A stretch of DNA of 64,000 nucleotides, taken from contig RPFO01000080.1 in NCBI GenBank assembly GCA_009746045.1, forward strand, positions 92,550-156,549, in the 5' to 3' direction. The stretch is from Mesostigma viride (lineage: Eukaryota > Streptophyta > Mesostigmatophyceae > Mesostigmatales > Mesostigmataceae). This document shows positions 2,681 through 26,206 of this stretch, in pieces. The translations under genes and the position numbers were made by a program. Position 1 is the stretch's first letter, and the number at the start of each line of letters is the position of its first letter. The notes below the pieces were generated by a model. It did no database searches, had not been told where the DNA came from, and worked only from the letters and a program-made list of their open reading frames with translations.

Positions 2681-5600
2681 GTGGCCACCGAGGAAGACCT
2701 GCGCGACCAGATCGGCACGAGCCGCCACTTCGACCTGGTGGACTTTGACCAGGTGAAGACCTTCCGTATGGAAAAGTCCCTGCACCTCACCGAGTTTCGC
2801 AAGGAGGTGAGTGGCCTGGATCTTCTGCCATTGCTGACTGCAAACGCCCGAAAAGGCATCACAAAGAAAGAGCGGATGCTGATAGATGCTGTTCTTGGCA
2901 TGCACAGAGGAAAGAAGCCATGGAGGAACGGAATAATGCGGCATGGGGCGCTTCATGGAAGAGTGTGTTAGACGCGACGACTGTCCTTCAATCTGGTCTC
3001 ATTACTTACTTGGTTCCTTTTTCTCTTGTCATGTTTCACTGAGTCCTTTGGGGGGGTTTGCTCCGTGAGTCCATTTTATTTTGTGTCTGGAGTCCCTTGG
3101 ACACCCCCTTGAACTGCTTTCACAGGAACGGTGCGGTTCTAATTTCATCATATTCAATACAATAGCTTTTGTCTTGCCATGCCGGGATCCTGCGGCTGTG
3201 GCTGTGACAGGTGGCGGCAATGTGGGGCGTGCCGGAGGGCCAGCAGCACTACTGGACGTTTGCCCGGCGGCAGAACGGAAGCTACCGTCCCCACCAGTGT
3301 TACAACCCCGGTGACAACAAGCCGCTGGTGGGTATCTGCAGTATGTGCCAACCAAATGCAGGTATATTTTACATCGGGTCGATGGATGTGGGGGCTTGGG
3401 GCTACGTTTCACGAGGGTGACCCAATTGCCCCCGCGTTTGCTGTCGGCCCTCTCTCGGCCCGCGTGCCGCGTGGGGCTGTTGGGGGTGTTGGGGGTGTTG
3501 GGGCTGTTGGGGTTGTTGGGGTTCTTGGGGTTGTTGGGGCTATTGGGGTTATTGGGGTTGTTGGGGTTATTGGGGTTATTGGGGTTATTGGGGTTATTGG
3601 GGTTATTGGGGTTATTGGGGTTATTGGGCAGTGTTTTTTTTAAGGTTTTCGTTACTAGTGGCGCTAGGCCACTTGTGGCGTTTCGAACTATGAAAACTTC
3701 AGTTTACTCGGCCAATGTGTGGCTTTAAGCCAATTAAAATTGGGCTTGGCACGGCCACGTGTGGCGGGCTGGCTTTTTGGTGCAGCAAATGACCCTACCG
3801 GCAGCGGGGTCAGCGCGGCGCGGCGCCGTACTGGCATTCCAAGTTCAAAGTAGTTCAGAACAGTATGTTTAATTATCTTAAGTTCAAACTAGTAGAATTT
3901 ATTAGAATCATTCACGCCTTAAGTTGGGTTCACGCCTGAAGTTGGGTTGACCAAAAACCTCGAACCCAACTTAAGGCGTGAATGCCTGTACACAAGGCGG
4001 GCGAGCGTCTCCGTCTCAGGCATCGGCGCCGGGCGTACTTGGTAAATTAACAACAACGATTACCACTACAGCCACTGCTTAACAAAACGATTACTGAAGT
4101 GCCGAAAGTCGAAACACATAGTCAATGCAATGCAGTACAGTACTGTATGGCTGGCGAGTGACTGGAACTGAGGCGCCAGCCGCCAGGCCGCCAGCCAGCT
4201 GAAGCCAGAAAATGCACACAAGCTGCAGTCTGCACAGTGCACTCTGGTCTCTGGCAGCGGGCCACTTGCCACTTGGCACTTGGCCGGGCTCTACGTACAT
4301 GCACTATGCAGTCAGTAAGTCAGTCAGTCATAGTAATACTCATAGTAGTTCTAGTACTAGGGAGGCTTGTGGCGGAACGCCGGCCGGAAGACCGGCTGAC
4401 ACCGCCAATTGTGGCGTAGCCTGTACTAGAGTGAACTTCAGGCACGGCCACCCTGTGGCGAAACGAAACTACAAAGTAGAACAGCACGGCCAAATTGTGG
4501 CTTCTTGGGTGCCCTGTCCAAGTGGGTGGCACCGCCACATTTTGCCAAAAAAAGTGCCACACCGCCACATTTGGCGGTGTATCGCCACTAAAAAAAACAC
4601 TGTTATTGGGGTTATTGGGGTTATTGGGGTTATGGGGGTTATTGGGGTTATTGGGGCTATTGGGGTTGTTGGGGTTATTGGGGTTATGGGGGTTATTGGG
4701 GTTGTTGGGGTTATTGGGGCTATTGGGGTTATTGGGGTTATTGGGGGTATTGGGGTTGTTGGGGTTGTTGGGTCGGTCCGTTTGGTCCGCTGGGCCGTCG
4801 GTCGGGGGCGGAGTGACGGGGCGGGCGGGGGAGGGGGGCTGGGCGGGGGAGGGGCGGTGGGGCGGTGGGGGTTGGGGGCACACGCGTAGGAAACGTTACT
4901 AGGACACTAGCATGACCGTTTCTAGATCAATATAAGTGGCTTATACCTATTGCAATGAATGAATACATGATATAAGTGTCACTTACATGGCAAAAATTCG
5001 AATTTGAGCTAAGTTTCTCACAAAGGGGTGACCAAACTCGACTTCTGAGGCGTGCTAGGGGTCAAATATCGTTGGAAAGGTAGTACAACTATCAAATAAT
5101 TAGTACAATTGCTATAGAAGTAGTACAAATATCTCGGTAGTACAAATGTCAGTCCTCTAGTACAGATCTCGGTTCGGCAGAATTAGCGTGCCGGACTTAG
5201 CGCACGATGCATGGGTGCGTGAATTTAATGCATATAATGCGCTATTTTTATGTAAAATGCAATTGTTGAGTGCATAAAGGCTTGCACAACACTTGAAATG
5301 GTTGTTAGTGAGTGAAAGAGAGCGATTGCAAGCAAGCGAGTGAAATCAAGCGATTGAACGCGGCGTTCTGCACCGATTCGCCCTCATTTTCTGGATCTGG
5401 AACGATAAATGAAACGCCACGAAGACGAAGCGGGCGATAAGGTGTGTCCTTAGCTAGCTTACATCAAAGCCGCCATCAATCGTGATTTTCTTTGCGTTTC
5501 TAGCTAGCTTACATCAAAGCCGGCATCAATCGTGATTTTCTTTGCGTTTCTAGCTAGCTTACATCAAAGCCGGCATCCATCGTGATTTTCTTTGCGTTTC

Positions 5601-8600
5601 TAGCTAGCTTACATCAAAGCCGGCACCAATCGTGATTTTCTTTGCGTTTCTAGCTAGCTTACATCAAAGCCGGCATCAATCGTGATTTTCTTTGCGTTTC
5701 TAGCTAGCTTACATCAAAGCCGGCATCATTCGTGATTTTCTTTGCGTTTCTAGCTAGCTTACATCAAAGCCGGCATCCATCGTGATTTTCTTTGCGTTTC
5801 TAGCTAGCTTGCATCAATGCCGGCATCATTCGTGATTTTCATTGCGTTTCTAGCTAGCTTACATCAAAGCCGGCACCAATCGTGATTTTCTTTGCGTTTC
5901 TAGCTAGAAACGCAAAGAAAATCACGATGGATGCCGGCTTTGATGTAAGCTAGCTAGAAACGCAAAGAAAATCACGATTGGTGCCGGCTTTGATGTAAGC
6001 TAGCTTGAAACGCAAAGAAAATCACGATGGATGCCGGCTTTGATGTAAGCTAGCTAGAAACGCAAAGAAAATCACAATTGGTGCCGGCTTTGATGTAAGC
6101 TAGCTAGAAACGCAAAGAAAATCACGATTGATGCCGGCTTTGATGTAAGCTAGCTAGAAACGCAAAGAAAATCACGATTGGTGCCGGCTTTGATGTAAGC
6201 TAGCTAGAAACGCAAAGAAAATCACGATGGATGCCGGCTTTGATGTAAGCTAGCTAGAAACGCAAAGAAAATCACGATTGATGCCGGCTTTGATGTAAGC
6301 TAGCTAGAAACGCAAAGAAAATCACGATTGATGGCGGCTTTGATGTAAGCTAGCTAAGGACACACCTTATCGCCCGCTTCGTCTTCGTGGCGTTTCATTT
6401 ATCGTTCCAGATCCAGAAAATGAGGGCGAATCGGTGCAGAACGCCGCGTTCAATCGCTTGATTTCACTCGCTTGCTTGCAATCGCTCTCTTTCACTCACT
6501 AACAACCATTTCAAGTGTTGTGCAAGCCTTTATGCACTCAACAATTGCATTTTACATAAAAATAGCGCATTATATGCATTAAATTCACGCACCCATGCAT
6601 CGTGCGCTAAGTCCGGCACGCTAATTCTGCCGAACCGAGATCTGTACTAGAGGATTGACATTTGTACTACTTCCGAGATATTTGTACTACTTCTATAGCA
6701 ATTGTACTAATTATTTGATAGTTGTACTACCTTTCCAACGATATTTGACCCCTAGCATGCCTCAGAAGTCGAGTTTGGTCACCCGTTTGTGAGAAACTTA
6801 GCTCAAATTCGAATTTTTGCCATGTAGGTGACACTTATATCATGTATTCATTCATTGTAATAGGTATAAGCCACTTATATTGATCTAGAAACGGTCATGC
6901 TAGTGTCCTAGTAACGTTTCCTACGCGTGTGCCCCCAACCCCCACCGCCCCACCGCCCCTCCCCCGCCCAGCCCCCCTCCCCCGCCCGCCCCGTCACTCC
7001 GCCCCCGACCGACGGCCCAGCGGACCAAACGGACCGACCCAACAACCCCAACAACCCCAATAGCCCCAATAACCCCAATAACCCCAATAGCCCCAATAAC
7101 CCCAACAACCCCAATAACCCCCATAACCCCAATAACCCCAACAACCCCAATAGCCCCAATAACCCCCATAACCCCAATAACCCCAATAACCCCAATAACC
7201 CCAATAACCCCAATAACCCCAATAACCCCCATAACCCCAATAACCCCAATAACCCCAATAGCCCCAACAACCCCAACAACCCCAACAACCCCAACAGCCC
7301 CAACACCCCCAACACCCCCAACAGCCCCACGCGGCACGCGGGCCGAGAGAGGGCCGACAGCAAACGCGGGGGCAATGGGGTCACCCTCGTGAAACGTAGA
7401 GGAGACGGTATAAGGGAATACAACGCAAACTAGTACAGTTGGCATTATTCAAGTTTTTGTAGACCCCCAAAACTCGCTTTTTTTCAGGAACAGCTTTTTA
7501 GGAACAGGCAAAAACGCTTTGGGCCAATCAGAATGCAGGGATTTGTTTCCTTTTGACCTTCTGGCCAATCAGAATGCAGGGATTCCCCTTTGCCTGTTCC
7601 TGGCCCCTTTGAAAAAGGTGGTCATGCTGGAACAGGCCGGCCACGGGCCGACCAGCCACGGGTGCTGCCACGGGCCGCAACGACCCCGCTTGACCGCCGC
7701 GGAAGCTAGCATTAGGCGGAGCCTATGGGGTCAGCTTGCTTGGGCGTAGGGAAGGATCTCTTTCAATGTGGAAGTGCTTCGACAGACATAGAAGGGAGGC
7801 GGGGGGTGTGTGCCTTTAAACATCTTCCACGTCTTCAGCCGCTGTGCTCTCCATAGTTACACCATCCCCTGTCAAGAAAGTTAATTAACTCTTCGCAGAT
7901 AAGACCAGTGGCCTTGCCCGCTGCCAGGCCAATCCACCCTATAATCACAACCCTCTTCTGGTTGCCTTAAACACAGAATGAGGGTTTTCTCATAAGTTCT
8001 TGGTGGTTTATTGCTTCCGGCGGGAGTGCGTATGGGGAACAGGGTTCCATGGAGTTGGATGTTCCATGTGTAAAAAGCAATGTGCCTTTGCGTGTGCCGC
8101 AGGCGATTTGGGTGGGTGGGTGTGAATGTGAGTGGGAAGCTGGGGAAAACGGCCAGGCCTAAACATGATGGAAGGGCCCATGTGTTTCTTATTTAGCCAT
8201 GTTATTTGCAATGCAGGAATGCTGATTTATGGATCGTGCGTCTGAGCTATCTTTCATGTCATCTGGGGCAAACTGAGCTTAGCTGATCATGGTTGCCGTG
8301 TCGCTTATAAGTACTCTAACTCGATAGTTAATGCTGGCAGGGATACGGTCTGCGTCAGCTGCAAAAGCTGGCTCCGGCAGAGTGATTCCTAAGCAGCAAG
8401 GGAAGCGCCTTGTTCTTGTTGCTGCCTCCCAGCCCAACCTAGATGAGTCAGATTCTGTAGTTTGAAAGCTGAGGGATCCCAGGCATGCCAGACGTGCTTA
8501 AACAATATCTTACCCGTGCTGTAAACAAGGGGGTCGACGCATTATGCGTGTGATCTCACATTGTGGATAATGCTTTACTGGGTGAAGTTTAGCTTGTCGC

Positions 8601-11600
8601 GCCGCCTACAGAACAGAGACAAATAAGACACGCACTACGGCATGCTACGTGACAGAAACCAACTTGGGTATCAGACAAATAGGACACGCACTACGGCATG
8701 CTACGTGACAGAAACCAACTTGGGTATCAGACAAATAGGACACGCACTACGGCATGCTACGTGACAGAAACCAACTTGGGTATCGGGTGAGTTGGCGTCG
8801 GTTGTGGTCTGACGGGTGCTTGGCATGTTGGGACAACTCATCCCTCTTCCCCCCCCAGGAGTCCATCCCCAGGAGTCCATCCATGGCGGACGCCATCCCT
8901 GAGCAACGAATGACGCTCGACCTGCTCTTGGTAAGCTTCAGGGCGTCACTTGGCAAATCCAACTGTGTGTTGGGACCTGGTGTGCAGGGACCTGGTGTGT
9001 AGGGACCGGTTAAGGTATTTCCCACCAATGACGATGATTTAAAAGACGCTCAGGGGACAGCTGGGTCACAAACCTGGCCAGAAAAATAGGCATGTCACCC
9101 CCAACACTCACCCAAATCAAACCGCAGTGACCTCATTTTTGGTATCACGCCAAGCTCAGTCTAGGTGTAAATGGCTTTTTCTCCATATTCTCAGCTTGCA
9201 GAACGACAAAGCGTGCAAGATAAAGATTTGACTGTCGATAGGAGATATAAATGTTGTATACTTTGTTGCTTTTCTCTTGCATTTAACATACTAACCTGGG
9301 AAGTTGCAGGCTGCCGGGTGGGTAGGGTTGGAAGAGTTGGAAGAGTTGGAAGAGTTGGAAGAGTTGGAAGAGTTGGAAGAGTTGGAAAGAGTTGGAAGAG
9401 TTGGAAGAGTTGGAAGAGTTGGAAGAGTTGGAAGAGTTGGAAGAGTTGGAAAGAGTTGGAAAGAGTTGGAAGAGTTGGAAGAGTTGGAAGAGTTGGAAGA
9501 GTTGGAAGAGTTGGAAGAGTTGGAAGAGTTGGAAGAGTTGGAAGAGTTGGAAGAGTTGGAAGAGTTGGAAGAGTTGGAAGAGTTGGAAGAGTTGGAAGAG
9601 TTGGAAGAGTTGGAAAGAGTTGGAAAGAGTTGGAAAGAGTTGGAAGAGTTGGAAGAGTTGGAAGAGTTGGAAGAGTTGGAAGAGTTGGAAGAGTTGGAAG
9701 AGTTGGAAGAGTTGGAAGGGTTGGAAGGGTTGGAAGGGTTGGAAGGGTTGGAAGGGTTGGAAGAGTGGAAATGTGTGTGGGAGGGGGGGGGGCGGGTAAG
9801 GGGGAAGAGAAGGGCAGTTTCTGTTTGGTGGGGTATCCACCACTAACTGAGTTACTTTGGTGTTTCGTGACAAGCCTGTAACGTCCAACATATCTTCTTG
9901 CCACTAACCTCGTGCTTTTTTGGTGCGCTTCAATCTGAATTTCAATGCACTGGAAGTAATTACACCATCCAATGTCTGGATTACTCCGTCGTCCTCCAGG
10001 TACCTGCCAGCACATTATCCATCAAATAATGTTGTGGCTGCATACACGCTCTTTAACATGGTGTTCATGTCAACTGCTGAGTCTATTGTGAGCCCCAACG
10101 CCACCCGATCTTGTTGCGCTGTATTTGTTCTGTCTGTCAGACCAAGTCAGGTGTGCCCACACGTTATACCAATAAGGGCTCCCTGCTCTTCTTGAAGTTG
10201 TACGACCCGCTGGAGGAGAGGATGACCTATGCGGGTCACATTTTGGTCAAGAGCGCGGCCAAGCTGCGAGATGTTCTTCCACGTGTGCGCCTCATCGCAG
10301 GGTACCTTCCCCTGCAAGACCTGCAGGTGTATGAGGAGATTTGGCAGAATCCGAAACCAGTGTGTCGCCTTATGGACGACGAGCTGACGGCGGCAGAGAG
10401 CGAGGTAAACTCTCGCAACAGCCATTTTTTTTGTGAGTAAATGTGAGTTCCAGCATCGAGCAGTATACACACTAGGGAGGGCTCGGTGATCTTCAAGAGC
10501 ATACGGAGGCGACGCGTGTACAGTTTCTTGTCTGCGAAAGGTTTGCCTCGGCAAACTTGCCATGTATAAGTTCTGGATGAATGGTTGGGGTGGACAGGTG
10601 GGGCGGGCGGGGGGAAAGGAAGAGGGGACTTAACGGGGAATCACGGGGTTGTGTGTGCGATTGGTACACTTTGTACTGTGCTGTGCTGGGGGTGGTTTCT
10701 AGGGTGCTCGCTTATGAACCTGTTTCACGTATACAAAATTCAGGCTTCTCCTGGTCTCTAATTCAGCAAGGTATAGGTGACTCACAGAGCATCTGCTTGT
10801 AATGCGGTGGATGCGGTGACCTAACCTTGGCACGCAAACAATCCTGCTCGTCACCGCGGTATATATATGCATGTATGTCGTGGTTCGATGTCCATCGAAG
10901 CTGCGTGCCGAGCCATGGCTTTCCCTCATCACGCCACTAATGTTATTACTGCAGTACATGTGCGTCAATTTAACTTTGCCTTCGTATAGAAGCACCATAA
11001 GCAACCGCCTTGTACAGTTTCCTGAGCGCAATCCAAGCACAGTCAAGTCTTGCTGTGAAATTAGCGTATTGAGAGAAACGCATGACGGCATAGTTGGACT
11101 ATCTGCCACCCATAATATGCCACTTTTTCCTCACATGGTAGGTCGCTGGCCCTGGGCATAAGGGCCGCCCTGCATGGAGGTTCCGCGATAGGCTAGTAAT
11201 AAGGACGTATGATATAAACTACCCGGCATCGGGGTATAGTGTTGAAGCCAGATCGTTGATCATCTGGGGTTAGAATAACCATAGGCAGTGATGCAGGCCG
11301 AGACCCCCCACTGGGCGCTATCCGAGCGAGTTCCGCGGTACCATTGCAATACATCAGGTCAGCCATTCGCCGTATTCGTTGGTCATTTGAAAGAATCCGA
11401 TTTCTCTGAAAATAGTTCATTAAACAGAATGCGGGAAAGAAAGAGCCGCCACAACCTTGTGGCTGTACATGCAGAAAGGCTTGTTAGACGAACGGGGACG
11501 GCTTGTTGTTTACCGGGGAATCCTACTGGCAACTAGCTTTGCCTTTTGTAAGTCAAGCACCCGTTTGTTTGAACGGCCGGCCATGTGTGGAATGCTGACG

Positions 11601-14600
11601 GCAATTGCGTCAAAAAGCTGTAATAAAATCTGATGTAACTAGCACTCACCAATTGATTGGTGTGCTGCTTGGTTGGGTAGTGTGTTCAGGTTTGCATGCG
11701 TATAGTACACATGGCCTGACAGCTCAGGCGTGTGACAGATGAGCTGGCTGGCTGAATTATTAAATTGTCAGCGTTAGGATATTTCTGGTTTTGCCGTTTT
11801 CCATTTTGACGGTAGGCTTGATAAGCATGGTCGGCGGGTTGTGACCCGTAATTGTTTCTTTCCACCCATCCCACCCTTGGGGGCCTCTTGCTCCTGCATG
11901 TGAGGGAGACGAGATGACTACTTAAACCTGCCTTTGGCAGGGGCTCTACTCATTGTTCTCAATCAAATGCTGGTTTTCTTGGAAGCTCAAGTGTCATAAG
12001 ATAAATCGTAAAGATGCCGGGCAGGCCACGACCGCCAACCAGTGGGGGCCCCGCTCTCTACGCAGTATAGCCGCAACCGAGTGATGGGTCAGGGGGGCTA
12101 CACTTGGCGGAGAGGTTTTCTGCATTGTACTTCACTAATCACTACCGTTGTCTCTGCCACTGAGCTTTTATGCTACATAGCGTAATGTCGCGATGCCTAA
12201 CTTAATGGATCGTATAATCATTTGCGATGCCGGACCATGCCCTCCTTTACTGTGTCCTGCAGCTTGAGACGGGGGACATCCTCTGTGTCCAAAAGGCGCT
12301 ATCCCCTGCTGTGGCCGCCAGGTGTCGCTTCCCCGACGTGCCGTCGTTCTTGGAGCATGTCCAGAACCTGCGGCGCGTCCGATTCAGCCAGCTGTCCAAT
12401 CCTGACAGGGTCACCTTTATCCTGGAGCTGTAAGTGGTCTCTTGCTGGAGGAAAGGCTAGGTGTGGCGGCTAGGTTGTATGTTCAGTGCCCTTGGTGGAA
12501 CAGTGAAGCAGATTTCACGGTTTATATATGATGCATGTAGATTTTCAGTCTGTAGTGGAAGTTGCCCCAGCTGTGCCCAGGAGCCCACAACGGGTCAGCG
12601 TGTTCGTATGGCAGCGTAGAATGCATAGCAGTGGTAGATCCTGGACATGTGCTCCTTGTCGTCATGTGGTGGTGCTTGCTGCAATTGACGTGTGCATGCA
12701 TATTGCCTTGGTGTGCTGGCCGGATTCTGGTGTCATGCAGGTCCAGCTGCGACGAGTACAATCATGTGGTGTCGAAGGTGGCACTGCAGCTGCCGAAGGA
12801 GGTTGCCAATGCCCAAACTTGCAACCCTTCGAAGGTCCGGCTCACCGCACACGACTGCGCCCAGAATGCGCCCAGGTGGCGGCCCATCCGCAGTGAGAAG
12901 AATGGCCGAGGAGTGCTTGTAATGGACATGCTGGCCCACGGCGCCCAGACGTCTGACATCCTGTACTATGAAGTAGTGGAAACCCCCCAGCCAGCGGCCG
13001 CGTGGATGAGAACCGCCATGGTGTCCGTGCATGACCAGCGTACAGAACAGGTGCGTGCATTTCGACATTTGTGATTTCGCCCCCTTGAATAATTACATGG
13101 ATTGTTATGATGAGATGTGGGATGCTATCGTATATAGCCTGGTAGGTAGGAGGGTATAGCTTGACTAGCTCAAAACGAACCTTAGCGTTTCCTCCGCCAT
13201 GAGCCACACCTCCTGCGCAGTTATCTTCATGTGACGGAAAGGCCTCCGGAGTTAAACACACCCTCCCTGCTTACCCTCTGAACTAGGCGTAGGTACCAGC
13301 ATCGTGCGACAACCAATGGCAGTTACCAATAACAGTACCAGCACTGAATTGGAGAGCACCTTGTTACAGTCAGATCCATCCCTAATTGTTTTCTGCTGTG
13401 TACCCTCTTCCATCCTTCACAGAGCCATCCTTCACTTGCCATTGCCTGCATGAATGGCACATGCAGGTGGCATGCTTCCGCGTTGAACTGTCGCAAGGTA
13501 GCACGGCCGGTGACGTGCTCAAGCTGGTGAAGGCCGAGCCCGCGTGTGCCCATTTGTCGGAGCTCTGCCTGACCAACATACGCGACAGCCGCATCCACAA
13601 GGTGTTCTCGCCGACCGAGGTCATGGACGACGTGGATGCTGCCTACTGGACCTTGCAGGTGAACGGATGAGTGGGTGGCAGCTAGTTTAAGGGCATGATG
13701 TTGACCCAGCAGGTCTGAATGTTCCGCGCATCATCCGCGTTTTGCCAGCAACGATACGCGAATTTTAAGGGGACGCCACACACCTAACGTGCACTTTCCT
13801 GGAAACCATACCCTATGCATGTGATAAAAATCAATTGATGATTGTGGGGACCATAAATATGATTTTGAAAAAATATCCAACCATTTGGTGGGGGTAGTAC
13901 CCCCCACTAGTTGCCCATTATGAGCTAAAAATAGAAAAACACTCTATTTTTTGCCTATTTTTCATAGGGAACCCCACACACACACTATTTTCACCCGACA
14001 TGATGTTTTCCTAAAATTGCAACCCTTTCCAAAAATTCCAGCTAGTTTGCAGCTCAGAATGAGCACATTTAGACACATTGATGGGGTTTCGCGAAAAACA
14101 CGTATTTTGGGGGTCCTTAAGAAAGTAAATCAAAGCATAGACGCATGCCATGGGGTCAGACTAGATGTTTTTACCTTTGGCATGGTTATAATTACACAGC
14201 CCCAAGTTTTCGGCTCATTCTGATCACGTTTACTCATGTTGATGGGTGTAAACATGCCAAAAAAAAGATAACAGGAAAAACCTGTTATTAGCACAAACAC
14301 CACTCCAATGACACACTTGCCCATCACAAACTGGGCCAATACTAGTTCAATTCATCAATTTATTATGTCAATAAGCTTGCAATTCAACCCCAGGTCATTC
14401 TGAGCTTGTTTGCTAATGTCACTTGGTCATCCCCGCTGTCCCCCTGCATGCCTGATAAAGCATGGCGTGCGGGTATCCATAAGCACAATCACAAACCTGC
14501 CCCCTGCACAAATAGGCAAAACCACGTAAAACAAGTGCAAGGTGGAAGCTGTAACCAAGGGTCACACCATTCTGGGCAGATTTGACCGGGTTGGGGAGTC

Positions 14601-17600
14601 ATTCACAACTTGCACGCAGTCATGATGCTAAATGATAAAACAGGCACCCTTCAAGGTCATAAGCACTATTGTTGCCATCCAGAAAGCTCAAGCTATGTTA
14701 AATGGAAGCAAAACAGGTGGGGGGGGGATCAGTAGCTCACAAATGCTCACCTTACCTAGACCCCACCACTTTTGCAACACAGCACATGCTAAGAAGGCTG
14801 GTAACGTAAATGCACAAATGGCATAAGTTATTCTTTGTTCAGTGTCTGGCGTATCAACCTCATGCAAGTACCCCAAGCACCATAACACAAGAGCTACCTT
14901 AAGAACCCTATCTACAATGCCTTTAAAACAAGTATTATAGACGTCAATAAACGAAGCAGGTGTGTAGCAGAAAATGGTTACATGCAGCCACATAAGCATG
15001 GCTAGCTCCCTTGCTAATACATGAGTGATGCCTATCATCTGATTGTAGGAGTTGAGTAATAAAACACATGCATATATATCAATGAGACCACATGCATATA
15101 TAGCCAAATGCACCGTATAAGGTATGTCCAGAATGGTGTGCAAGGTTACCTTGTTTTCCAGGACGCTGAGGACCCTAGAGGCGTTCATGAGCTCGTCAGC
15201 TCCTTGCGACGGTGATGTCGCTCCCAGGCAGCTAGGGTTGTTGACTACGCAATATAGATTGTCTACGACGGTAAGCCTTCCACCCATCAAGCATAGCAAA
15301 ATCCCGATATCTCGCCGACCGATTCTGGGTAATATCAAGGAGCGCGTCGTACGCAGCATAAGCCATACCATTGAAAGCTGCGGAAAATCTGACAACGCAA
15401 CTGCAACATGCGGCGAACATAATAACAAGATCATACCGGAAACGACTCTTAAGAGTTCACCGTCACGGACTCTTATAACGCAAAGGGATGTAGGGGGAAT
15501 ATGGGGCAAACGAAAGTACCATGGTCTGCATTCTTACCTACCTAGGCTGGCAAATAAAGCCCATCGTCCATGAAGGCTTGGGCACGGATCGCACAGGCCC
15601 GAACAATATCTTGCCAGAAATGATGGGAAATGGCTGCATATCAGAGCCGCTAAGGTTGTACTCACTGCCGCCATTATTAAACGGTTAGTACAGGATCAAT
15701 ATAACGCACGAAACTTGCCTGTTACCATCGCAGGCATGCATTCTAAATTATTCATCGCGGCCAGATTTTCATATTAGACCCCCGTGCAAATGTTCATCAA
15801 GTAAGGCATCGATTTTTCAAATAGCTCAGATTTGGCTATGAAAAGTCATACTAGAACATCAATGATTAGCATCGGCATAATTTTTTCGCTTGTCGCTTGC
15901 CCGACTAGTCAAGTTTTTACGGAACCACGTCGCCATGGCCACCTCCGCACGAGGTGCGCGCATTGTGCACCACAATTTCTCGGTCCGGAGGTACCGTCGG
16001 TACCGGCGTGAATTTTTTGCGTGACAAATTCCTGGGTGTCGCGTTCCCTTATATAAGCATGCAGAAACAGTATCTATCCGAAGCATTGATGTGCATTCGG
16101 TCTGTTATTGATTAACACAGCGCACTCGGTTCCCACGTGTGACGGAGGGCTCCCATGGTAGTGCCTGCATGAGTCCCAGCTGGTGACAAGCTGGGCTCTA
16201 AAAAGAGGTCTGCAGCCTGCCTTTTTGTTGGGTATTGTAGAGCAAGATGCACCGTGGCCCTAGATTGTTTTGCTCGGAGTCAAGAGGCTCTGGGTCAAAA
16301 GATCTGGTGCCATCAAAATGATCGCTGTGCAAAGCTCGGCGTCCACCTCAAATGGACTTTCTCCAGCGGTATGATGGACTGTCAGTGGAAGGTCCGTATT
16401 TCGCCAGCATGAGCATCGGTTTCAGCCACGTACACTACCACGTTAGTGCAAGTTACCATGGCTATGGTCTTTGCGGCTTTGCTAGTATGCTCCCCATGTT
16501 CTTCCCGCAACACATCCCGCGTCTATGTGTAAGTTATTCCCGGAAACTCCCCATTTTTGCGTCAATCACGTTCGAAAGTTGTCACTGATATGTTGTTTTG
16601 CTCACAGGCTATGGAGACAGGAACGCACCCTGGGCCAGAGGGCAGGCTTATCCCTGTCTGCCACGTGCGGAGAGTCGAGACGGATGGCAACAACAAAGTG
16701 GTGAGCATCTCATCCCCTTGCCCATTCCCTGGCCATCCTCGGCCCTTCTCTTGCCTGCTAATAATCCTGCCTCGATACTCGGTTCTAGATTGATGATAGT
16801 CTTTTTATGGGGGGGTAGAAACCATTTGTCCCGAGAGCACTTCCCACTTTGACCATACAGCTCGTTTGGAATGTGCATCTAAGATCATGGCTGTGCGTAA
16901 GAAAAGTCACTGTTAGTAAAGGTCTGGCTTTTGAACTACCAGTAATGATGTGGCAAAACACGTGTAAGGAAAACTGCAACATACGTCCAGGTGTCATTCA
17001 ATCCAGCATGAGGCTTTTCCAGGGTGTAGAACGATTAGTGCCTGGAAAAATCTAGAATTTAGGATTACCAGCGTTCCAGCTTGGCGGATAGGTTTGTCTA
17101 ATCAAGATGAAATGAGTCACATTCTGGCCACTTCTTTTGTGCCTTCCAAAAGTGCAACTGATATTGTCGCTATGGTATCTGTTTGAGTCGGCACTAGAGT
17201 GAGCATAAATCTTGAAACAACAAACGATGCAAGAGAGAACTACCTTCTTGGTAACGAAACCCTAACCGGCCATTTTTGTCAATGGTGTGCCTCGCACAGC
17301 ATGGACTCATCCCTTAGCTGTTGGTATCGTTGACTTGGGTACCAGATGTCAGCCCCATGCAGCAACATGTTGTTAGAGACCCTATCCACACTTGTTGATC
17401 ATGGTTGGGCTGGTGATGATCGCAGGCCTTGGGCTGCATGCAAACCTCTAGCTCATGCCATGTAAGTCATCCTTACTCGGCCCCACCGTTCATCTTATCC
17501 AAACTTATCGTAGTCCCTTTCGACCGCATGGCAACGCCAAGTAAGGGACAGCCACGCTTCGGAAAAAATCGTTTGACTTAAGAAACCAGAATATGGTTGT

Positions 17601-18888
17601 CTGGAAAATAATGTTGCCGAAGTGACTTGCAGCTATGGACATGGAGCTGGAAACACGAACAAGCAAGTTCCATTCAGTTCCGATGCCAGCTCATCACGGC
17701 TGCATTATGAAGAAAATCGCCTATTTTGCTGCAGCGCTACTGGTGACGTTGATGGGGCTTTTTATTACCTCTTTCCTATCCGTTGGGTGAACATTTTTGA
17801 CCACTTGAACGTGTTGACCCTGACGTGTGCATTACTGCCCCCCCCCCTCCCCCACCGACGTATTCTTTGCTGCCTCCTCCTGACTTGTGCTTTACCGGCC
17901 CCTTCTCCCGGTTAATCGGTTGATACTTTGATAATTGGATGATTGATGAAACTACTTGGAATGCATCCCTCCACCCAGATGGCTGCGTTCAGCCACCCCT
18001 TCCTGCTTGCAGTGGGCGAACAAGAGACTCTGGCATCCGTCAAGGCACGCATCCAGGCCAAGCTGGGGGTGACCAGAAAGGAGTTCGCCAAGTGGAAGTT
18101 TGCCATCATGGGCGAAGGCATTCCGGTTCAGCTCAAAGACAACGACGTGGTGGCACTGCGGTACCAGGTAGGGTTGGCCTTCTGAATGACCCTGGGCCCG
18201 CGTTGACTATCTATACATACACCCCAGGACAGATCTCCTGGCACCTTCCCATATACTACTATACACCTGTATATTGACCATGGTAAATTACAGGCGTGAG
18301 AGCGGTAGCACAAGTAGAGCGGGAGAACAGGAAGAATGCAAGCCAAGCAATAACGGCTCCCCGTCAATCTGTGCCGCACTAGCAAGGCTTCCAACGAAGT
18401 CCAGCCATGATGGGTCCCCAGATAAGCGAGGCATCCTGGAATTTTGTGGCAATAGTGAGCACTCTCCCGTACTGCTGCCCGGCCTTTTTCATTTGTGCCA
18501 GCGCAAGCCTCGCTGGCAATTCTTGTGGGACAGAGTGCGGGCGTGAACTGCATGAGTAGCTGTAAATGGAATGCAACAGGTGAATTGCTGACAATCATCT
18601 TGCAGCTGTTTGTGGCAGCCGCACCAGCCCATGGAGTGTGGACCCTAACCAACCGGTTTTCTGCTTTGGTGTCTACTGTGTCCAAGTTCCTCCAGAAAAT
18701 GCCCCTGATCTTTAATGACATGTGCCTGTGCTGCCTTTGGCCGCTACCAGGAGTTGCGGATCGGGCGGTGGGACACCTCACTGGGTATTGAGCATCCAGC
18801 GAAGCCGGTGACCACCCCAAAGCCGCACACAGAGGACTCCACATTATCCGAAACTGGAGCAGCAGTAGCAGCAGAAAGGTGCGAGTAG
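2681..18888 (+). CDS. USP7/UBP12-type ubiquitin C-terminal hydrolase, C-terminal half (10 exons, 5' end outside window)
   Basis: Predicted exons: 2681-2806, 3211-3327, 8859-8930, 10141-10404, 12263-12429, 12741-13050, 13467-13658, 16608-16700, 17979-18167 and 18751-18888 (TAG). All junctions are GT-AG and phases agree, giving about 555 residues. The peptide follows plant UBP12/13 and animal USP7 in order: [35 protein letters not shown] then [52 protein letters not shown] and LGIEHPAKP. In the family this half forms ubiquitin-like domains that bind substrates and activate the upstream cysteine protease domain, which removes ubiquitin in nucleus and cytosol. The catalytic domain and MATH domain are not in this window. 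The 72-nt third exon is the weakest call. The downstream kinase gene begins within about 0.5 kb. Family assignment is confident; exact paralogue is not. Confidence 0.9.
3480..3628 (+). repeat. GGGGTTATT-type 9-bp microsatellite, outer part of left palindrome arm
   Basis: Mostly 9-bp units of the form TTATTGGGG with TTGTTGGGG and TGTTGGGGG variants at the outer edge. Runs of four Gs with 5-base spacers make it a canonical G-quadruplex candidate on the coding strand. It is interrupted at 3629 by the hAT-like element and resumes in phase at 4603. Confidence 0.95.
3629..4602. mobile_element. hAT-like non-autonomous DNA transposon (974 bp)
   Basis: The element starts CAGTGTTTTTTTTA and ends in the reverse complement TAAAAAAAACACTG. 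It is flanked on both sides by TTATTGGG (3621-3628 and 4603-4610). Removing the element plus one flank restores the 9-bp phase of the surrounding array, as expected for an 8-bp target duplication, the hAT hallmark. Near the ends are several short palindromic motifs of the type GGCCAC-nn-GTGGC (for example about 3670, 3757, 4445, 4487, 4530 and 4561), resembling the subterminal transposase-binding repeats of hAT elements. A hairpin at about 3912-3985 contains AACCCAACTTAAGGCGTGAA and its complement. No transposase is encoded. The insertion post-dates the palindrome, because the other arm lacks it. Confidence 0.82.
4603..4773 (+). repeat. GGGGTTATT 9-bp microsatellite, inner part of left arm
   Basis: Continuation of the left-arm array after the hAT-like insertion, with TTATGGGGG, CTATTGGGG and TTGTTGGGG variants, followed by a very G-rich tail to about 4880. 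The variant order is mirrored in the right arm at about 7034-7200. Confidence 0.95.
5451..6356. repeat. 18 tandem 50-bp repeats, nine in each orientation, at the palindrome centre
   Basis: The unit begins TAGCTAGCTTACATCAAAGC and has exactly 50 bp. Nine copies run forward (5451-5900) and nine run as reverse complement (5901-6350), meeting at TTTCTAG/CTAGAAA with no spacer. Copies differ only at a few bases (CATCAAT, CATCCAT, CACCAAT, CATCATT variants). The variants are not perfectly mirrored between the arms, so some copies have changed or converted since the palindrome formed. It is not a CRISPR array: there are no spacers and orientation flips in the middle. Confidence 0.97.
7034..7333 (-). 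repeat. CCCCAATAA microsatellite of right palindrome arm
   Basis: Reverse complement of the left-arm array, uninterrupted, in 9-bp units. It is longer than the sum of the inner left array and shows how the left arm looked before the 974-bp insertion. Its 3' side continues into the mirrored outer end GTCACCCTCGTGAAACGTA. Confidence 0.95.
7400..8616 (+). other. Intron sequence without a recognised gene
   Basis: Between the palindrome and the next tandem repeat. Two direct copies of GGCCAATCAGAATGCAGGGA lie near 7523 and 7562, flanked by inverted copies of GGAACAGGCAAA (about 7500 and 7588), which suggests a small degraded hairpin element. Nothing else is recognised. Confidence 0.5.
8617..8784 (+). 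repeat. Three tandem 56-bp repeats just upstream of a deubiquitinase exon
   Basis: Copies begin AGACAAATA at 8617, 8673 and 8729 and are nearly identical (one AAG/AGG difference). The array ends about 75 bp before the acceptor of the 72-nt exon at 8859. Confidence 0.95.
9317..9768 (+). repeat. GAGTTGGAA 9-bp microsatellite (~450 bp) in intron
   Basis: About 50 copies of GAGTTGGAA with occasional 10-bp units (extra A), closing with GGGTTGGAA variants and a poly-G stretch at 9780-9795. The 9-bp period keeps every frame open, which produces long spurious frames on both strands. It lies in the intron between exons 8859-8930 and 10141-10404. Confidence 0.97.
10405..12262 (+). other. Intron sequence without a recognised gene
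   Basis: Donor GTAAAC at 10405 and acceptor TGTCCTGCAG ending at 12262. The flanking exons join in phase and match contiguous USP7-family sequence (LTAAESE then [11 protein letters not shown]), so nothing coding is missing here. No repeat or element is recognised. Confidence 0.7.
14688..15643 (-). other. Possible nested minus-strand coding remnant (uncertain)
   Basis: The minus strand stays open for 273 codons at 14688-15509 with several hydrophobic stretches. Two short frames look protein-like next to splice-like sites. One reads [19 protein letters not shown] (about 15560-15630). The other reads [19 protein letters not shown] (about 15320-15400), after a GTTGCAG acceptor, and the segment ends near a donor ENK|GTAACC at about 15150. 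The pieces do not join in one frame: TAG stops intervene. I do not recognise the family. It may be a decayed gene or element copy, or a chance open frame. Confidence 0.2.
15908..16032 (+). repeat. Dispersed repeat, copy 1 (inverted relative to copy at 63525-63640)
   Basis: Shares ACGTCGCCATGGCCA, CTCCG, GGTGCGCGC, GTGCACCAC, GGTACCG and GAATTTTTT in the same order with the reverse complement of 63525-63640. Conservation of order across about 110 bp shows a common origin. Function and element type are unknown. Confidence 0.6.
16701..17978 (+). other. Intron sequence without a recognised gene
   Basis: Donor GTGAGC at 16701 and acceptor CCACCCAG ending at 17978. Exons on both sides join in phase. 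No repeat, element or nested gene is recognised. Confidence 0.6.
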
Positions 18889-19385: not shown

Positions 19386-22300
19386 CCAGCGTTCTTGCTC
19401 CATACTGCATTTTGCCGGTGGAAGCCGGACTCACTTGGGCTAACGCAGCAACTGATCAAGGACCTCTCGACTTCGCTGTGAATTGCTTGATGGGTGGTGG
19501 GTAGAGGGAAACTTGGCTGGTTGGATGGGCGGGCGGGCGGGCGGGCGGGCGGGCGGGCGGGCGGGCGGCGGCGCGGCGGGCGGGCGGCGGGCGGGCGGGC
19601 GGCGCGGGCGGGCGGGCGGGCGGGCGGGCGGGCGCGGCGGGCGGGCGGCGGGCGGGCGGGCGGCGGGCGGGCGGCGGGCGGGCGGGCGGGCGGGCGGGCG
19701 GGCGGGCGGGCGGGCGGCGGGCGGGCGGGCGGGCGGGCGGGTGGGTGGGTGGGTGGGTGGGTGGGTGGGTGGGTGGGTGGGTGGGTGGGTGGGTGGGTGG
19801 GTGGGTGGGTGGGTGGGTGGGTGGGTCGCTAGTGGGTGGGTGGGAGTCAGAGGGGGGGGAGGGGGGAGGGGGATGGTGGAGGTGTGTGTTGGCAATTGTC
19901 CACCTGCAGGGAGGAGCCCAGGCTGCTGCGGGGCCTCAACAGAAAACGCAAGTTCTTCTCGCAAACCTTCGAAGAGACATCGCAGCTGCCCCCGCAAGAC
20001 ACCCCCGCGCATTTGGCGGAGGCGCTGGCAAGTCTCGCGGATTATTGTCGCCCATCGGATGTGTGGCAGCTGGCGCAGACCACCCAGAACATCGGCCGCG
20101 CGCTGTGGGCGTCCGTGCTTGAAGTTGCCACCATGCGCACCGGCCTGAGGGCGACGGATGAGGAGGTGCAGAAACTGGCCGAGACCTGCCTGCAGAAAGA
20201 GGAGGTGCTGATGGAAGCCGTTGCGAGGGCTAAGGAAAAACCCCTGGATAAAACAGCGCTATCTGCCAGGGACCAGGCGCTGGAGGACCACCTGGCATCC
20301 TTGCGGCAGCTGGAGGAGAGCTACACCAGGAAGGCGGCGTTGGCCGGGGAGAGGGTGCGGCAAAAGCGGAGGGTGGAGGAGCTGTCTGGCCTGAGCACAG
20401 CCGTGGGGGGGGGCGCCGGGCCTGAATCCTTGAATGAGGCGCAAGGCCTCCAGGTGGATGATGTTCACGAAGCGTTGGTGTTGGCTGGGAGTGCTCTCGA
20501 GGAGTGCGAGGAGCAGCTGGCGCCAGCAGCGGCGGCGACGCGTGCAGCGATGGAGCAGCTGGCAAAGTGCCTGGAACGCCAGCGGGTAGTGACGGAGGGC
20601 GTGCGGGAGAAACTGGGCAAGGCTCGTGATGCGGGCGCGCGGGTCGTGGGCGCTGCCGTCAAGATGATGGAGGGGGAGACGCCGGAGGAGGACGCGGAGC
20701 ATGCGCGCGTGCTGCAAGGGCTTGTGGATACGAAGAAGAAGGAGCTAAGGGATGCGATGGCGGCGCGGCAAGGGCTGCGCCCGACCGAGGTGCGTTTGGG
20801 GCTGCTGCAACGTGACCTGCTGGAGGTTCGCAAGCAGAAAACGCTGGCAAAGGCCCACCTGGAAATTGCTGAGTTTTCAGAAAAGGCCAAGGAAGCGAAG
20901 GCGCTGCGGGCACAGCTGGACGCCCTGGAAGGCCGGCAGAGGGAGATCGATGCCAGTATAGGGAAGCTGACAATGGAGGCACAGGAAGCCGCACAAAAGC
21001 TGGCGCAATACTACCCCGAGGCGGCCGTGTTGCCAGAACGGGCCAACCGGCTAAGCAAGGCGCTCCCTGGTAGTGCCGGCAAGGGCAGCGATGACATCAT
21101 CGACCCTGACTGGTCCCTGGCGTGTTTCCGCGACAGCATGGGGCAGCCGTTGGGCAGTTCCAAGGTTAGGGTGGTGGAGGACCGGGAGGGGTGCACGTGG
21201 GTAATCAAGGAGCTGTGTCAAGAGAGGGAGCTGAGACGGGAGGGCGGGCGGTTGCAGGCGCTGCAGCACCCGCTGGTGATCCGGCTAGAGCGGATTTTCT
21301 TCGACCGAGGCCTGGCCTATCTGCAGATGCCTTACTGCAAGAACGGGAGCCTGCGCGCCTGGTTCGAACGCATCAAGGCGAGGACCCTGGATGGTCTACC
21401 ACTGGGCTTGGAGGAGCGCCAGCAGGTGTGGGCGACGATGCGGCAGGTCTTCCAGGCGGTCGCGTTCATCCACCGCAAGGGTGTGGTCCACCGAGACCTG
21501 AAACCGGAGAACATTCTTCTGCAAGACGATGGCCAAATCGCGCTGTGTGACTTTGGCGTCAGCCACGACGTCAGTAGGGCCTTACAGACCACCCTGGCCA
21601 CCCAGCTTGGCGGCTTTACAGTGGCCTATGCCGCCCCAGAGGTGCTCACTTCCCAGCCGTCGGCCAAGCAGTGGCCCTTTGCGCAGGACATGTGGTCCCT
21701 GGGCGTGATGCTGCTGGAGATCCAGACAGGGTCCCTGCCGCTCTGGAACGTTGTCGCCGGCCGCCTGGAGGATGCCCAGGGCAGGCCGGTGGCCGTGGAT
21801 GCCAGCTCGACGGGCGGCCCATCCCAGGGTGATCCCTGGACAATTGCGTTGCGGGGTGTGGCATCCAGCCTGCTTCAGGTGGACCCTGCCGGCCGGCCGT
21901 CTGCCGAGGACGCTCTTAGTGACCCGCACGGTTTCCTTGCACGGGACCTGACGCAGGTGGCAGTGGAGCAGCAGCGGCGCATGCATGCGCTTAGCAGCTT
22001 TCTGGAGAGCCTGCGGCGCTGCCCCGTGCGTGTTGCGGGGCGAGCGCACCTGCTGAAGGTGACCGATCTCGCCAACCGGCCGCAGCTGGTGCAGGAGGTG
22101 CTGGAAGCGTTTCAGGCTGATGGGCTCGACCTCCGGGTGGTGTTCTCGGTGGAGTGCGGCGGCATAAGGGTCCCCTTGTCCGAGGTGCTGGACCGGTTCT
22201 TCCAAGCCATGGTGCTGCCAGAGGTGGGGCTGTTTGAGCAAGGGCGGGAGGGGCGGGAGGACGTTTTGCCCCCTTCTCAACTGCAGGAAGGCGTGGCGTT

Positions 22301-23408
22301 TCTGCCCAAGAAGGCGCCACAGCATGCCCAGGCCAACGAGCAGCACATGAAGAAGCTGAGGGCAATGGGCAAGGCCCTCGCAAAGGCCATCCTCGAGTGC
22401 CTGCACGTCCCTGTCATGTTCGCGACCGCCCTCTGCTGCTTCCTGGTGGGGGACGAACAGCTGGCGGACGCCACATCCTCGCGTTGCCTGGAGCTGATGG
22501 CGGAGTTTGACCCGGTTGTGGCTGGACAGATGCGTGTCATGCTGGCAATCACCCACGGCAGTGGCCAGGAGCATGCCATGATGGCGTCCATGCTGACGCG
22601 TTGTGCGGCCAAGGACGATTTTGCGATCACCGACGCGAACAAGGGGGCGGTGGTCCGGCAGGCGGTGCAACTGCGCCTGTTCGCGGACCGCAGGGAGGAG
22701 CTGTGCGCCCTGCGCGAGGGGTTCCAGTCCCTGGACGACCTGATGGCGGACCACCTCAAGCTCATGACGGGCGAGGTCTTGGTCACCCTGTTCTTCGGCC
22801 AGGACTACTTGGACGTAGATACGGCGCTGAACGCGTTTGTGTTCCCAGAGGAGTATTGGGGCGGAGCCGCGAACAAGGGGCCGCCTGCTGTCAAGGGATG
22901 GCTGCAGCGCTTCATCCGGGAGGTCTCGGAGACAGGGCTGCGGTTGCTGTGCCTGCGGGCACTGGGCAGCGTCAATGCCTTGCAATCCGGCCACAAGTGC
23001 TCGGTGCTGCCCGGTGGGAAGGAGCGGGAGCTTCCTGCGTTTGAGAGGGAGACGGGCTGCATGTACATGCCGGAGGGGTGCTCGGACTTCAATGCTTTCC
23101 AAGCGAGGATGCACCGCGCGCTGCGGGCGGGGGAGTATGGCGTCCGCACCGGTGCCCAGCAGGAGGAGAGGCTGGCCAGGGAGGAGATGGATGCGGTGGT
23201 GGGTGCCATGAGGGGGCAGGTGCGGGCGGGAGGGTGGTATCGCTGCCCCAACGGTCACCCGTATGCCATCGGGGATTGTGGTGGCGCCATGGTGGAGGCC
23301 AGGTGCCCAGTCTGCGGGGCAGGTATTGGCGGCCAGCAGCACCGGCTTCGAGATGACAACCAGAACGCTCTGGACATTGATGATGCTGCTGCACCTGCCT
23401 GGAACTGA
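19386..23408 (+). CDS. Protein kinase - HECT-like - RZ zinc-finger fusion protein
   Basis: Main exon 19910-23408 (TGA). A probable preceding exon, 19386-19477, joins it in phase 2 (CT|G); its own start is unknown. Residue numbers count from the in-frame ATG at 19836. Residues ~110-400 are charged and heptad-like, probably coiled coil. A kinase domain spans ~440-690: VIKEL Lys458, HRDLKPEN 552-559, DFG 572-574, APE 600-602; the glycine loop is weak (GQPLGSSKV). Residues ~725-1105 resemble HECT ligases: LRVVFSVECGG, VGLFEQ, MGKALAKAI, DANKGAVV, FQSL, then TGCMYMPEG, with Cys1075 where the catalytic cysteine lies. The C-terminus has an RZ finger as in RNF213/ZNFX1: CPNGH 1137-1141, CG 1148, CPVC 1157-1160, IGG and His1169. 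Inference: a ubiquitin ligase carrying its own kinase. Kinase and RZ calls are firm; HECT is by eye. The intron between the exons is a GGGC/GGGT microsatellite. Confidence 0.87.
19527..19830 (+). repeat. GGGC then GGGT tetranucleotide microsatellite in the kinase-gene intron
   Basis: About 215 bp of GGGC units with some GGC slips, switching at about 19740 to about 85 bp of GGGT. It fills most of the 432-bp intron 19478-19909. The coding strand is G-rich and should form stable G-quadruplexes. Long frames of Gly/Arg/Ala/Trp/Val or Pro/Thr/His across it are artefacts. Confidence 0.97.
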
Positions 23409-23950: not shown

Positions 23951-25489
23951 TTAATTAATTATTTATTTAACACGTAACAGCGTTACGCGAGCATAAGTCC
24001 TCAGTACAGCCGAGATCGAGGGGGATGGGATGGGATGGGATGGGATGGGATGGGATGGGATGGGATGGGATGGGATGGGATGGGATGGGATGGGATGGGA
24101 TGGGATGGGATGGGATGGGATGGGATGGGATGGGATGGGATGGGATGGGATGGGATGGGATGGGATGGGATGGGATGGGATGGGATGGGATGGGAGGATC
24201 GAGGGAGCTCTAGCTATCTAAGACCTAGTTACGGGGTTGTGGACACCATGGCCCGAATCACTGTGAATGCCATACTTGGTCACACGCGGCCGGAGCCCCC
24301 ACGGACTTGGGGTTGGACTCCTTCATGACTACCTGCCACCTATCCTTGCAAACCATCTTCCTCCAGATGACAGACATGCCAGGGGCCGGGCTGCCCTGGC
24401 GGGAGCCCATTGCGATGTGGGTAACACATGCCTAGCCTATCCCGGAAGGTTCTCGGGTGGCGCGCCCCGGCCGCGCGCTCGGCCCGGGGCGCGCCATGTG
24501 AGAACAAGACGCCCAGGTTGAGCGGGTTTGGTGCCTGCTGAGCTATCCATCGTGTCGAACTGATCGAGGTGCCCGGCTAGGCCCAGGCGCCTGTGCTTTA
24601 TAACATGGGAACTGCATATGGTAAATCAGCATACAAATCCTTATGGCTTATGTGCAGGCTAAATGGAATATTGAGCGCATTACGCAGCATCTTAGTGACC
24701 GCGCCGTCGAGTTGCTGCTCCAGCTCAGTCCTGCGCGATCAGCGTTCACGTCTTTGCTCCATAGGTCAGGGTCGTCAGGACGACGACGTTGAAGAGGTCG
24801 CATTTGACAGTCCGGGGCAGGGCGGGGTTGCTCCACCAGCCGGACGGTGCTCGTGGAGCTGTGCCCAGGCCATACCAATCTGGGTCGTCACGTCGTCCTC
24901 GCAGTTGGGGAGCCAGCTGCCGAGCAGCTTGAAGCGACCGGAAGTGGGGAAGGGCACTGGGGTGTCGTGTAATTAACAGGCGGAGCTCAGGGGGGGGGGC
25001 GGCCATGCAGGCTGAGCTCATGGCTTCCCTCGGGCCATGGCTTTCGTCCTGGGGCTGATTTCGATCGAGACCAATAGCCCGGGCCTCGAGCCGGAGCCAG
25101 GCAGTCCAACCACAGTTGGGCAGAATCCGGCTGCGCAGCGAGCGTGATGTCGTCACCATAAATGAGCTCAGCGAGTAAATTCCGCTTGTTAGTTGGCCCC
25201 CCTTCCCCGGGATCGTTCTGAATCTCGAGGCCAGGGGCACGGCCAGCAATGCTAGCAAAGCGGGCACGTGCTTGGCGCACACGCAACATAATCCACTACA
25301 ATAATGAACAGGTATCGTGACACTGACGCAGCCCTGCCAGATGCCTGTCTGCAGCTTGGACATGGTGGTGCATTGCCGTCAACCAGCTAAGGTGCGGACA
25401 TAGGCCAGGGGAAGATCATCATGGCTAAACAATGGCTAGGGCATGGAGTCTCAGCAGAGAGTAGCTCTCTGCATTGGCGATGCTAAGCT
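23951..25489 (-). mobile_element. Decayed LINE copy A, 3' part
   Basis: Minus strand. The 3' tail ATTAATTAATTA is at 23951-23965. A 3' UTR shared with the other copies follows (AGCATAAGTCCTCAGT, GGCCCGAATC, TGCCATACTTGGTCACACG). Reverse-transcriptase remnants then include LTYGAKTWAL and TGIWQGC, broken by frameshifts. About 25370-25480 resembles the 3' region of a second LINE family, with the hairpin CTCAGCAGAGAG/CTCTCTGC, and interrupts the RT where the YADD-side and N-terminal parts should join. Dead element. Confidence 0.75.
24021..24195 (+). repeat. GGGAT pentanucleotide microsatellite inside a LINE 3' UTR
   Basis: About 34 perfect copies of GGGAT. The corresponding place in sibling LINE copies reads ACATGGGATGGAATGGATGG (about 26272) or its complement (about 51205), so the array grew from a GGGATGG seed within the element. 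Confidence 0.97.
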
Positions 25490-26206
25490 TAATTCTTAAG
25501 GATCATGCGCATGAACAACTTGAGCGCGGCGCTCTGGATGCAGACTCCTCGGTAGTTGGCGAGGTTGGCAGGAGAACCTTTGTTTTTGTAGAGCATCATC
25601 CGGAAGCTGTGTTGCCATTCAGGGATAGGCAGGGCATCAGCCAGCAGAAGCCGGTTGCAGACGTCGAGCAGAAACTGCGTGAGCGGCGCCGGTGCGGGGA
25701 GCTGGTCGGGACCAACGGCAGCGTAGAAGCGGAGCTGGCAGGCGGCGGTGCATAACTCGGGCTCCGTGAACAGCTGCAGCTCATCAGGGGCGGCCTGGGT
25801 CTCCGAAAGAGGGGCCGGGACACCCGACGCGGGCGCCGGACGGGCGGGGCCCGCCAACGGGCGGGGGGGGCTGGGGGGCACCAAGCAACCGCGCGAGCTA
25901 GACTGGGAGGAGTACCAAATTGAGGTACGTCCAGCTGTTGTTGTGGCGAACGCAGCAGCGTCCGGCGCGCTGATTGTGCGCCACGGGCGGGTCATTGGGC
26001 GTGGCGCAGGGGAAACCGGCCCAAGCATACTTGCCGTGTTGGTCGTCGAGGTGGGCAAAGTACTCGCGGATGTGGAGGTCCTCCCGTTCAGCAGATGAAT
26101 CGATCAATCAATTGATTCTGGAAAGACACGTACAACTGCCTCACATGAGCATAAATCCTGAATTGAATGCGTGCATGGGCGAACGGAGCCTGCACCTATC
26201 TCACTA
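25490..26206 (-). pseudogene. LINE RT N-terminal fragment, duplicated unit 1 (left part)
   Basis: Minus-strand frame 25489-26058 reads RFYAAVGPDQLPAP, NRLLLADALPIPEWQHS, MLYKNKGSP, NYRGVCIQSAALKLFMRMI, the start of an L1-like RT domain. Its upstream part is Pro/Ser-rich linker. It is nearly identical to 27184-27940. Interrupted by insertion B at 26207 and continued at 27094. Confidence 0.8.

Follow-up and report, generated by a model that had tools for sequence, protein, structure and literature searches.

Catalysis by an RZ-type zinc finger is on record for the human immune proteins RNF213 and ZNFX1 (PMC12075652). In mouse RNF213, Cys4451, His4455, Cys4471 and Cys4474 bind zinc, Cys4462 emerged as the nucleophile from cross-linking and mutation experiments, and His4483 is the proposed general base (PMC12075652); in human RNF213, the C4516S variant produced no ubiquitylation of bacteria or of the T. 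gondii vacuole (PMC11549300). The RNF213 authors raised the prospect of related E3 ligases with the same Cys/His pair (PMC12075652), and the ‘split-site’ work on ZNFX1 is recounted in a review (PMC13270118) that serves here, together with PMC13061254 and PMC13137688, as general background. A different kind of precedent comes from Leishmania mexicana, where the HECT ligase TKUL is described as carrying its own regulatory kinase (PMC13196369); the original TKUL paper refers in its title to an allosteric kinase switch (reference 84 of PMC13196369). Here, we describe a gene of the streptophyte alga Mesostigma viride that joins a protein kinase domain, a HECT-related region and an RZ finger in one chain and in which the HECT domain appears to lack the usual active-site cysteine. 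The gene lies in a stretch of 64,000 nucleotides (assembly GCA_009746045.1, contig RPFO01000080.1, positions 92,550 to 156,549, forward strand), which we call the window; all coordinates below count from its first base.

The closest precedents are RNF213 and ZNFX1 for the RZ finger and Leishmania TKUL for the kinase-HECT pair. With RNF213 the Mesostigma protein, known from the gene model P0001, shares six RZ Cys/His residues at identical spacing, and with ZNFX1 a C-terminally located RZ finger that bears the Cys/His pair (PMC12075652). In contrast, the AAA core and RING of RNF213, as well as the RNA helicase (SF1) and NFX1 fingers of ZNFX1, had no Pfam match in P0001 at E 0.01, and the protein instead has kinase, HECT and USP7-type domains. 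TKUL sets a precedent for kinase and HECT in one chain, although it is described as a HECT ligase, and its description in PMC13196369 mentions no RZ finger. Canonical HECT ligases (NEDD4, HUWE1 and UBR5) resemble the protein in the profile and PDB matches of the N-lobe and in the LP-to-P spacing of the active loop, whereas their catalytic cysteine is missing in all 12 paralogues and an RZ finger follows the C-lobe here. A HECT domain usually forms the C-terminal end of its protein. In G2E3, activity is ascribed to domains other than HECT, these being RING-like/PHD and not RZ, and the protein is not known to have a kinase. A literature search of open-licence PMC papers listed none that reports a single chain with kinase, HECT and RZ, in agreement with an earlier note on this DNA that knew of no described protein with this order. 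Kinase-HECT proteins and RZ catalysis are each known; what is new is their combination with the apparent loss of the HECT cysteine.

The plus-strand frame 19833-23408 is open without interruption. Pfam analysis of the translated interval 19911-23405 gave three domains above their curated cut-offs in one polypeptide: Pkinase (6e-40, residues 422-672), HECT (2.6e-9 at 37.6 bits, the cut-off being 23.9; residues 766-978) and ZnF_RZ-type (9.2e-22, residues 1099-1151). The three-part anatomy that the earlier note had read from motifs is thus solid, including the HECT profile match, one of the conditions on which that note had made its proposal depend. Protein searches retrieved P0001, a gene model of 1,789 aa that is 100% identical over the C-terminal query region; its label is eukprot jgi/Mesvir1/27199/Mv07045-RA.2, in which we read Mesvir1 as Mesostigma viride. 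The features of the gene are as follows, with residue counts across 12 paralogues.

2681..18879 (outer ends), plus strand: ten upstream exon blocks of the P0001 model, with USP7-type ubiquitin-like domains
19910..23408, plus strand: last coding exon, with a helical-looking region, kinase, HECT, RZ and stop; P0001 624-1789, exact match from 19908
19910..21173, plus strand: region before the kinase, coiled-coil-like by eye (label not computed)
21174..21926, plus strand: protein kinase domain, P0001 1046-1296, Pkinase 6e-40
21207..21209, plus strand: catalytic lysine K1057 of the kinase, Lys in 12/12
21489..21512, plus strand: HRDLKPEN catalytic loop, invariant in 12/12
22206..22844, plus strand: HECT part matched by Pfam, mainly N-lobe, 2.6e-9; PDB matches to NEDD4, HUWE1, UBR5 and RSP5
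22845..23153, plus strand: putative rest of HECT, chiefly a divergent C-lobe, from profile A4 against six UBR5 sequences
23049..23051, plus strand: Glu, aligned with UBR5 C2768, the HECT catalytic Cys; Glu 9, Gly 2, Arg 1 of 12
23058..23060, plus strand: Cys1075 of the earlier note (P0001 C1674); Cys 8, Ser 3, Tyr 1 of 12, not conserved
23205..23363, plus strand: RZ-type zinc finger, P0001 1723-1775, 9.2e-22; nine RNF213 PDB sequences, best 2e-7
23277..23279, plus strand: RZ cysteine C1747, proposed ubiquitin-accepting nucleophile, 12/12; equivalent to mouse RNF213 C4462 and human C4516
23340..23342, plus strand: RZ histidine H1768, proposed general base, 12/12; equivalent to mouse RNF213 H4483 and human H4537

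The paralogues come from three protein searches, each of which scored 8000 candidates within length limits. At least 12 proteins, all labelled Mesvir1, carry kinase, HECT and RZ in the same order, and they make up 12 of the 13 matches of one search; such a recurrence is more than a chance arrangement. P0019 and P0007 are relatives without the complete core, and four matches of another search, as well as P0008, have RZ without HECT. P0008, a metagenome protein with a helicase domain and RZ, was the sole match from outside Mesostigma among those listed for the search with the C-terminal region; because each search covered 8000 candidates within length limits, the missing matches elsewhere count for little. 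No relatives were confirmed in viral contigs or prokaryote genome contigs. In the family alignment (A3), HECT and RZ are present in all 12 rows, and Pkinase matches each of the 11 rows long enough to contain the kinase region; the twelfth row is the HECT-RZ piece of the window, and P0001 itself has the kinase by Pfam.

In the RZ finger, the pattern C-x3-H-x6-C-x8-C-x2-C-x8-H, with the spacing of RNF213, is present in 12/12 paralogues and in all five other RZ proteins fetched, and the full RNF213-type set (the zinc ligands, namely three Cys and one His, plus the further Cys and the further His) is complete in every paralogue. Among the blocks counted, RZ has the largest share of invariant columns (24 of 41), the other figures being 94 of 251 for the kinase, 27 of 90 for the C-lobe and 58 of 245 for the HECT N-lobe, the last of these lowered by a deletion in P0018. 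A single-sequence PDB search also returned mitochondrial ribosomal protein S27 at E 0.38, which we take as chance. The RZ cysteine at 23277-23279 is more likely to be the nucleophile than Cys1075.

The kinase is likewise well preserved: the VIK Lys, the alphaC Glu, HRD, DFG and APE are all kept in 12/12 paralogues, and its best PDB match is 9gmp, ‘Map kinase kinase-like protein’. The Lys, HRDLKPEN, DFG and APE motifs listed in the earlier note are all there, its residue numbers running one below a count that starts at 19833.

Does the HECT region still hold a cysteine at its active site? The Pfam match spans only profile positions 6-205 of 306 (ending at 225-234 in four other members scanned), and no Pfam match extends over the C-lobe, the expected site of the catalytic Cys; the HECT-like region of the earlier note is thereby borne out for the N-lobe by a profile match that leaves the C-lobe out. 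A PDB search with family profile A2 matched nine RNF213 sequences through the RZ finger and 21 HECT ligase sequences through the rest (30 HECT sequences up to E 10). With profile A4, all six UBR5 sequences were aligned beyond the active-site position at E 0.0014-0.0028, the end of the N-lobe being included in these alignments; the same search gave a nanobody at E 1.8, which we regard as a chance match. In UBR5, LPTANTC occupies chain positions 2762-2768 and the catalytic residue is Cys2768. When three profiles were compared with verified UBR5 C-lobe letters, the LP...LxLP loop of the family paired without gaps with LPTANTCISRLYVP, which places the UBR5 Cys opposite P0001 residue 1671 and a UBR5 Arg opposite the cysteine of the earlier note. 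No gap interrupts the register between the LP motif and the later Pro, and the PDB-search alignments match it in their end points, as does hhalign, whose local and global runs gave an identical register. As aligned, residue 1671 is Cys in 0/12 paralogues.

The HECT part is, judged from identities among close copies, still constrained and held approximately as tightly as the kinase, since 414 and 417 of 430 HECT residues are identical between P0001 and its two nearest paralogues, as against 491 of 605 and 488 of 607 in the HUBL part. The kinase figure is 273 of 280 in both comparisons, and the pre-kinase region has 353 and 355 of 388. Alternatively, this pattern could stem from gene conversion acting on the long last exon.

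Taken together, the favoured reading, to which we give slightly better than an even chance, is that of a transthiolating ligase of the RZ type whose HECT region, without an active-site cysteine, docks the E2, with the kinase regulating and the active site having moved from HECT to RZ. The HECT N-lobe would still dock E2~ubiquitin; ubiquitin would then pass to the RZ cysteine (23277-23279) and not to the C-lobe, and the RZ histidine may help to hand it to the substrate. The kinase might switch or guide transfer, as reported for TKUL, or work on the same partners, and the N-terminal module may select the targets, being made up of USP7-type domains in P0001 and of ankyrins or neither in other paralogues. 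Gating of the ligase by the kinase is conceivable by analogy, and a stress-related or pathogen-related role, which the earlier note also suggested, may be envisaged.

Several results weigh against this reading. With profile A2, only one of six UBR5 alignments reaches the active site (profile 233-382 to chain 2624-2775), and those with NEDD4 and other HECT ligases end before it. The UBR5 C-lobe scores of the three profiles are only -2.6, 1.3 and 3.0 bits. The C-lobe profile alone retrieved no HECT sequence from PDB, giving two unrelated weak matches, and hhalign of this lobe against six canonical C-lobes (the sequences of five of which are largely unverified) was not significant, its probability being 0.4% and its score of 13.3 no higher than column shuffles can give (best of 100, 20.8; mean, 11.8). 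C1654 and C1681 are each Cys in 12/12 paralogues and are therefore kept as alternative, relocated nucleophiles. RZ and tail, with 57 of 62 residues identical to both nearest paralogues, fall below the identity of HECT. The glycine-rich loop of the kinase lies outside the Pfam match, because that match begins at profile position 19 of 263. Finally, all 12 members come from one genome, and shared ancestry and gene conversion may inflate their agreement.

These points bear on where catalysis, if any, takes place. The RZ finger could be catalytic with HECT as a fold that binds only ubiquitin or substrate, the E2 docking elsewhere, at HUBL or the RZ region; the E2 dock of RNF213 is indeed a separate C-terminal domain (PMC12075652). 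We regard this as unlikely: the part of HECT recognised by the profile is mainly the N-lobe, that is, the E2-binding lobe, and HUBL is excluded as a general dock because the three shortest paralogues, which are without HUBL, keep HECT and RZ. It is rather improbable that the protein is a HECT ligase whose C-lobe nucleophile has been relocated to C1654 (22998-23000) or C1681 (23079-23081), as the invariance of both would allow, for C1681 stands 10 residues past the catalytic position and C1654 17 residues ahead of it. From the usual HECT topology, C1681 would presumably be placed at the distal end of the strand that carries the active site, which also counts against it. The original proposal of a thioester on Cys1075 has in its favour a cysteine near the end of the HECT-like region that recurs in 8/12 paralogues; the residue is, however, Ser in three and Tyr in one and stands three residues past the HECT catalytic position, and it was rejected as the nucleophile on account of this poor conservation and offset, leaving the model very improbable.

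Two further explanations dispense with ligase activity or with a working protein. HECT and RZ might both be scaffolds and the kinase the working enzyme: since the HECT region is without its Cys and the USP7-like domain of some paralogues apparently without catalytic residues, ubiquitin enzymes that have lost their activity may be retained in this family as scaffolds. Set against this explanation, which we hold to be improbable, is the retention in 12/12 paralogues of the two RZ positions that serve catalysis, not zinc binding, in RNF213. An annotation artefact or a decaying gene family in place of working fusions is barely credible; the paralogues are predicted gene models, P0007 and P0019 are without a complete core, and P0018 is without a stretch between kinase and HECT, but kinase, HECT and RZ lie in one uninterrupted exon and their order is kept in 12 proteins. 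Separate genes for the three domains were rejected because all three share that exon.

The N-termini of the family differ. In a tree of the last 800 residues, seven members have USP7-type N-termini, two have ankyrins and three have neither, each set standing on one side of a well-supported branch (P0017 has a long branch, and its placement is unsure). The three deep groups with different N-termini agree on the pattern of active-site and RZ residues; either the core is older than the choice of N-terminus, or N-termini were swapped. In P0003, an ankyrin paralogue, the precomputed Pfam list adds a clathrin propeller and linker, which were found in one A3 row. P0014 (Mv07044, gene 27194) and P0001 (Mv07045, gene 27199) are ~95% identical over the last exon, and their near-consecutive gene numbers suggest a neighbouring copy outside the window.

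Five members match the USP catalytic domain (UCH), while the P0001 model is without a USP catalytic part. The N-terminus of P0018 matches USP7 at 7e-49, with His in place of the catalytic Cys of USP7 and Arg in place of its catalytic His. In an alignment of six members, the Cys column is readable in four members, none of which has Cys there, whereas at the His column five members show Arg, Leu or a gap and none shows His. Thus, the USP7-type deubiquitinase domain of some paralogues is apparently dead; an alignment shift at these columns may nevertheless be involved, because P0007 has Cys and P0015 and P0016 have His, each one place after the catalytic column in these predicted gene models.

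As for the gene itself, residues 72-1789 of P0001 map exactly to window positions 2681-23405 on the plus strand in eleven blocks, whose borders are compatible by eye with GT..AG when overlaps are allowed for. The upstream exons encode USP7_ICP0_bdg (5e-39) and USP7_C2 (2.7e-21; Pfam on P0001), the ubiquitin-like domains of the deubiquitinase USP7. The exon of the earlier note is therefore a real open exon, its start at 19910 placed by an AG acceptor that ends at 19909; it closes a longer gene and is not the whole. Neither exact six-residue seeds (one chance match) nor tblastn, whose first match begins at residue 70, placed residues 1-71 in the window, and their coding part is presumably situated to its left. 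The pre-kinase region (19910-21173) contains no significant Pfam domain (best E 0.11), the Rfam search gave no match at the gathering cut-off, and the NCBIfam scan gave none up to its cut-off.

Repeats accompany the gene. The last exon starts directly 3' of a GGGC/GGGT array at 19527-19844, and a perfect GGGAT array lies 3' of the gene at 24022-24195. At 5451-6356, in an intron, a 50-bp unit repeated ~9 times is followed directly by an array of its reverse complement, making by eye a palindrome of ~900 bp that might fold into a large hairpin or else be a product of faulty assembly. Elsewhere in the window, two open reading frames encode reverse transcriptases (49468-51000, plus strand, RVT_1 2.6e-25; 55679-57928, minus strand, RVT_1 2.5e-23); the segment ~24200-27940 has DNA similarity to both regions, and one open reading frame scanned there had no Pfam match. 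A minus-strand frame at 30621-31706 has a ribosomal protein L22/L17 domain (2.8e-26), and ~34 copies of ACCCTAA, the plant-type telomere repeat, lie inside the window at 59568-59806.

At least 12 proteins of a streptophyte alga thus carry the RZ Cys/His pair beside a HECT domain seemingly unable to use the HECT cysteine. These proteins may constitute a hybrid class of E3 in which a Cys-less HECT domain took RZ as its active site, with passage from the HECT N-lobe to the RZ nucleophile, control by a kinase in the same chain and a dead USP7 targeting module in some copies, a possibility that we rate a little short of even. If this is true, RZ catalysis would be transferable as a module to another E3 scaffold, and catalytic centres could migrate between unrelated E3 folds; RZ ligases would exist in the green lineage outside the layout of RNF213 and ZNFX1, and kinase control of an E3 would be open to study in a single chain. 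RZ catalysis from a HECT scaffold, if proven, would define a new E3 subclass.

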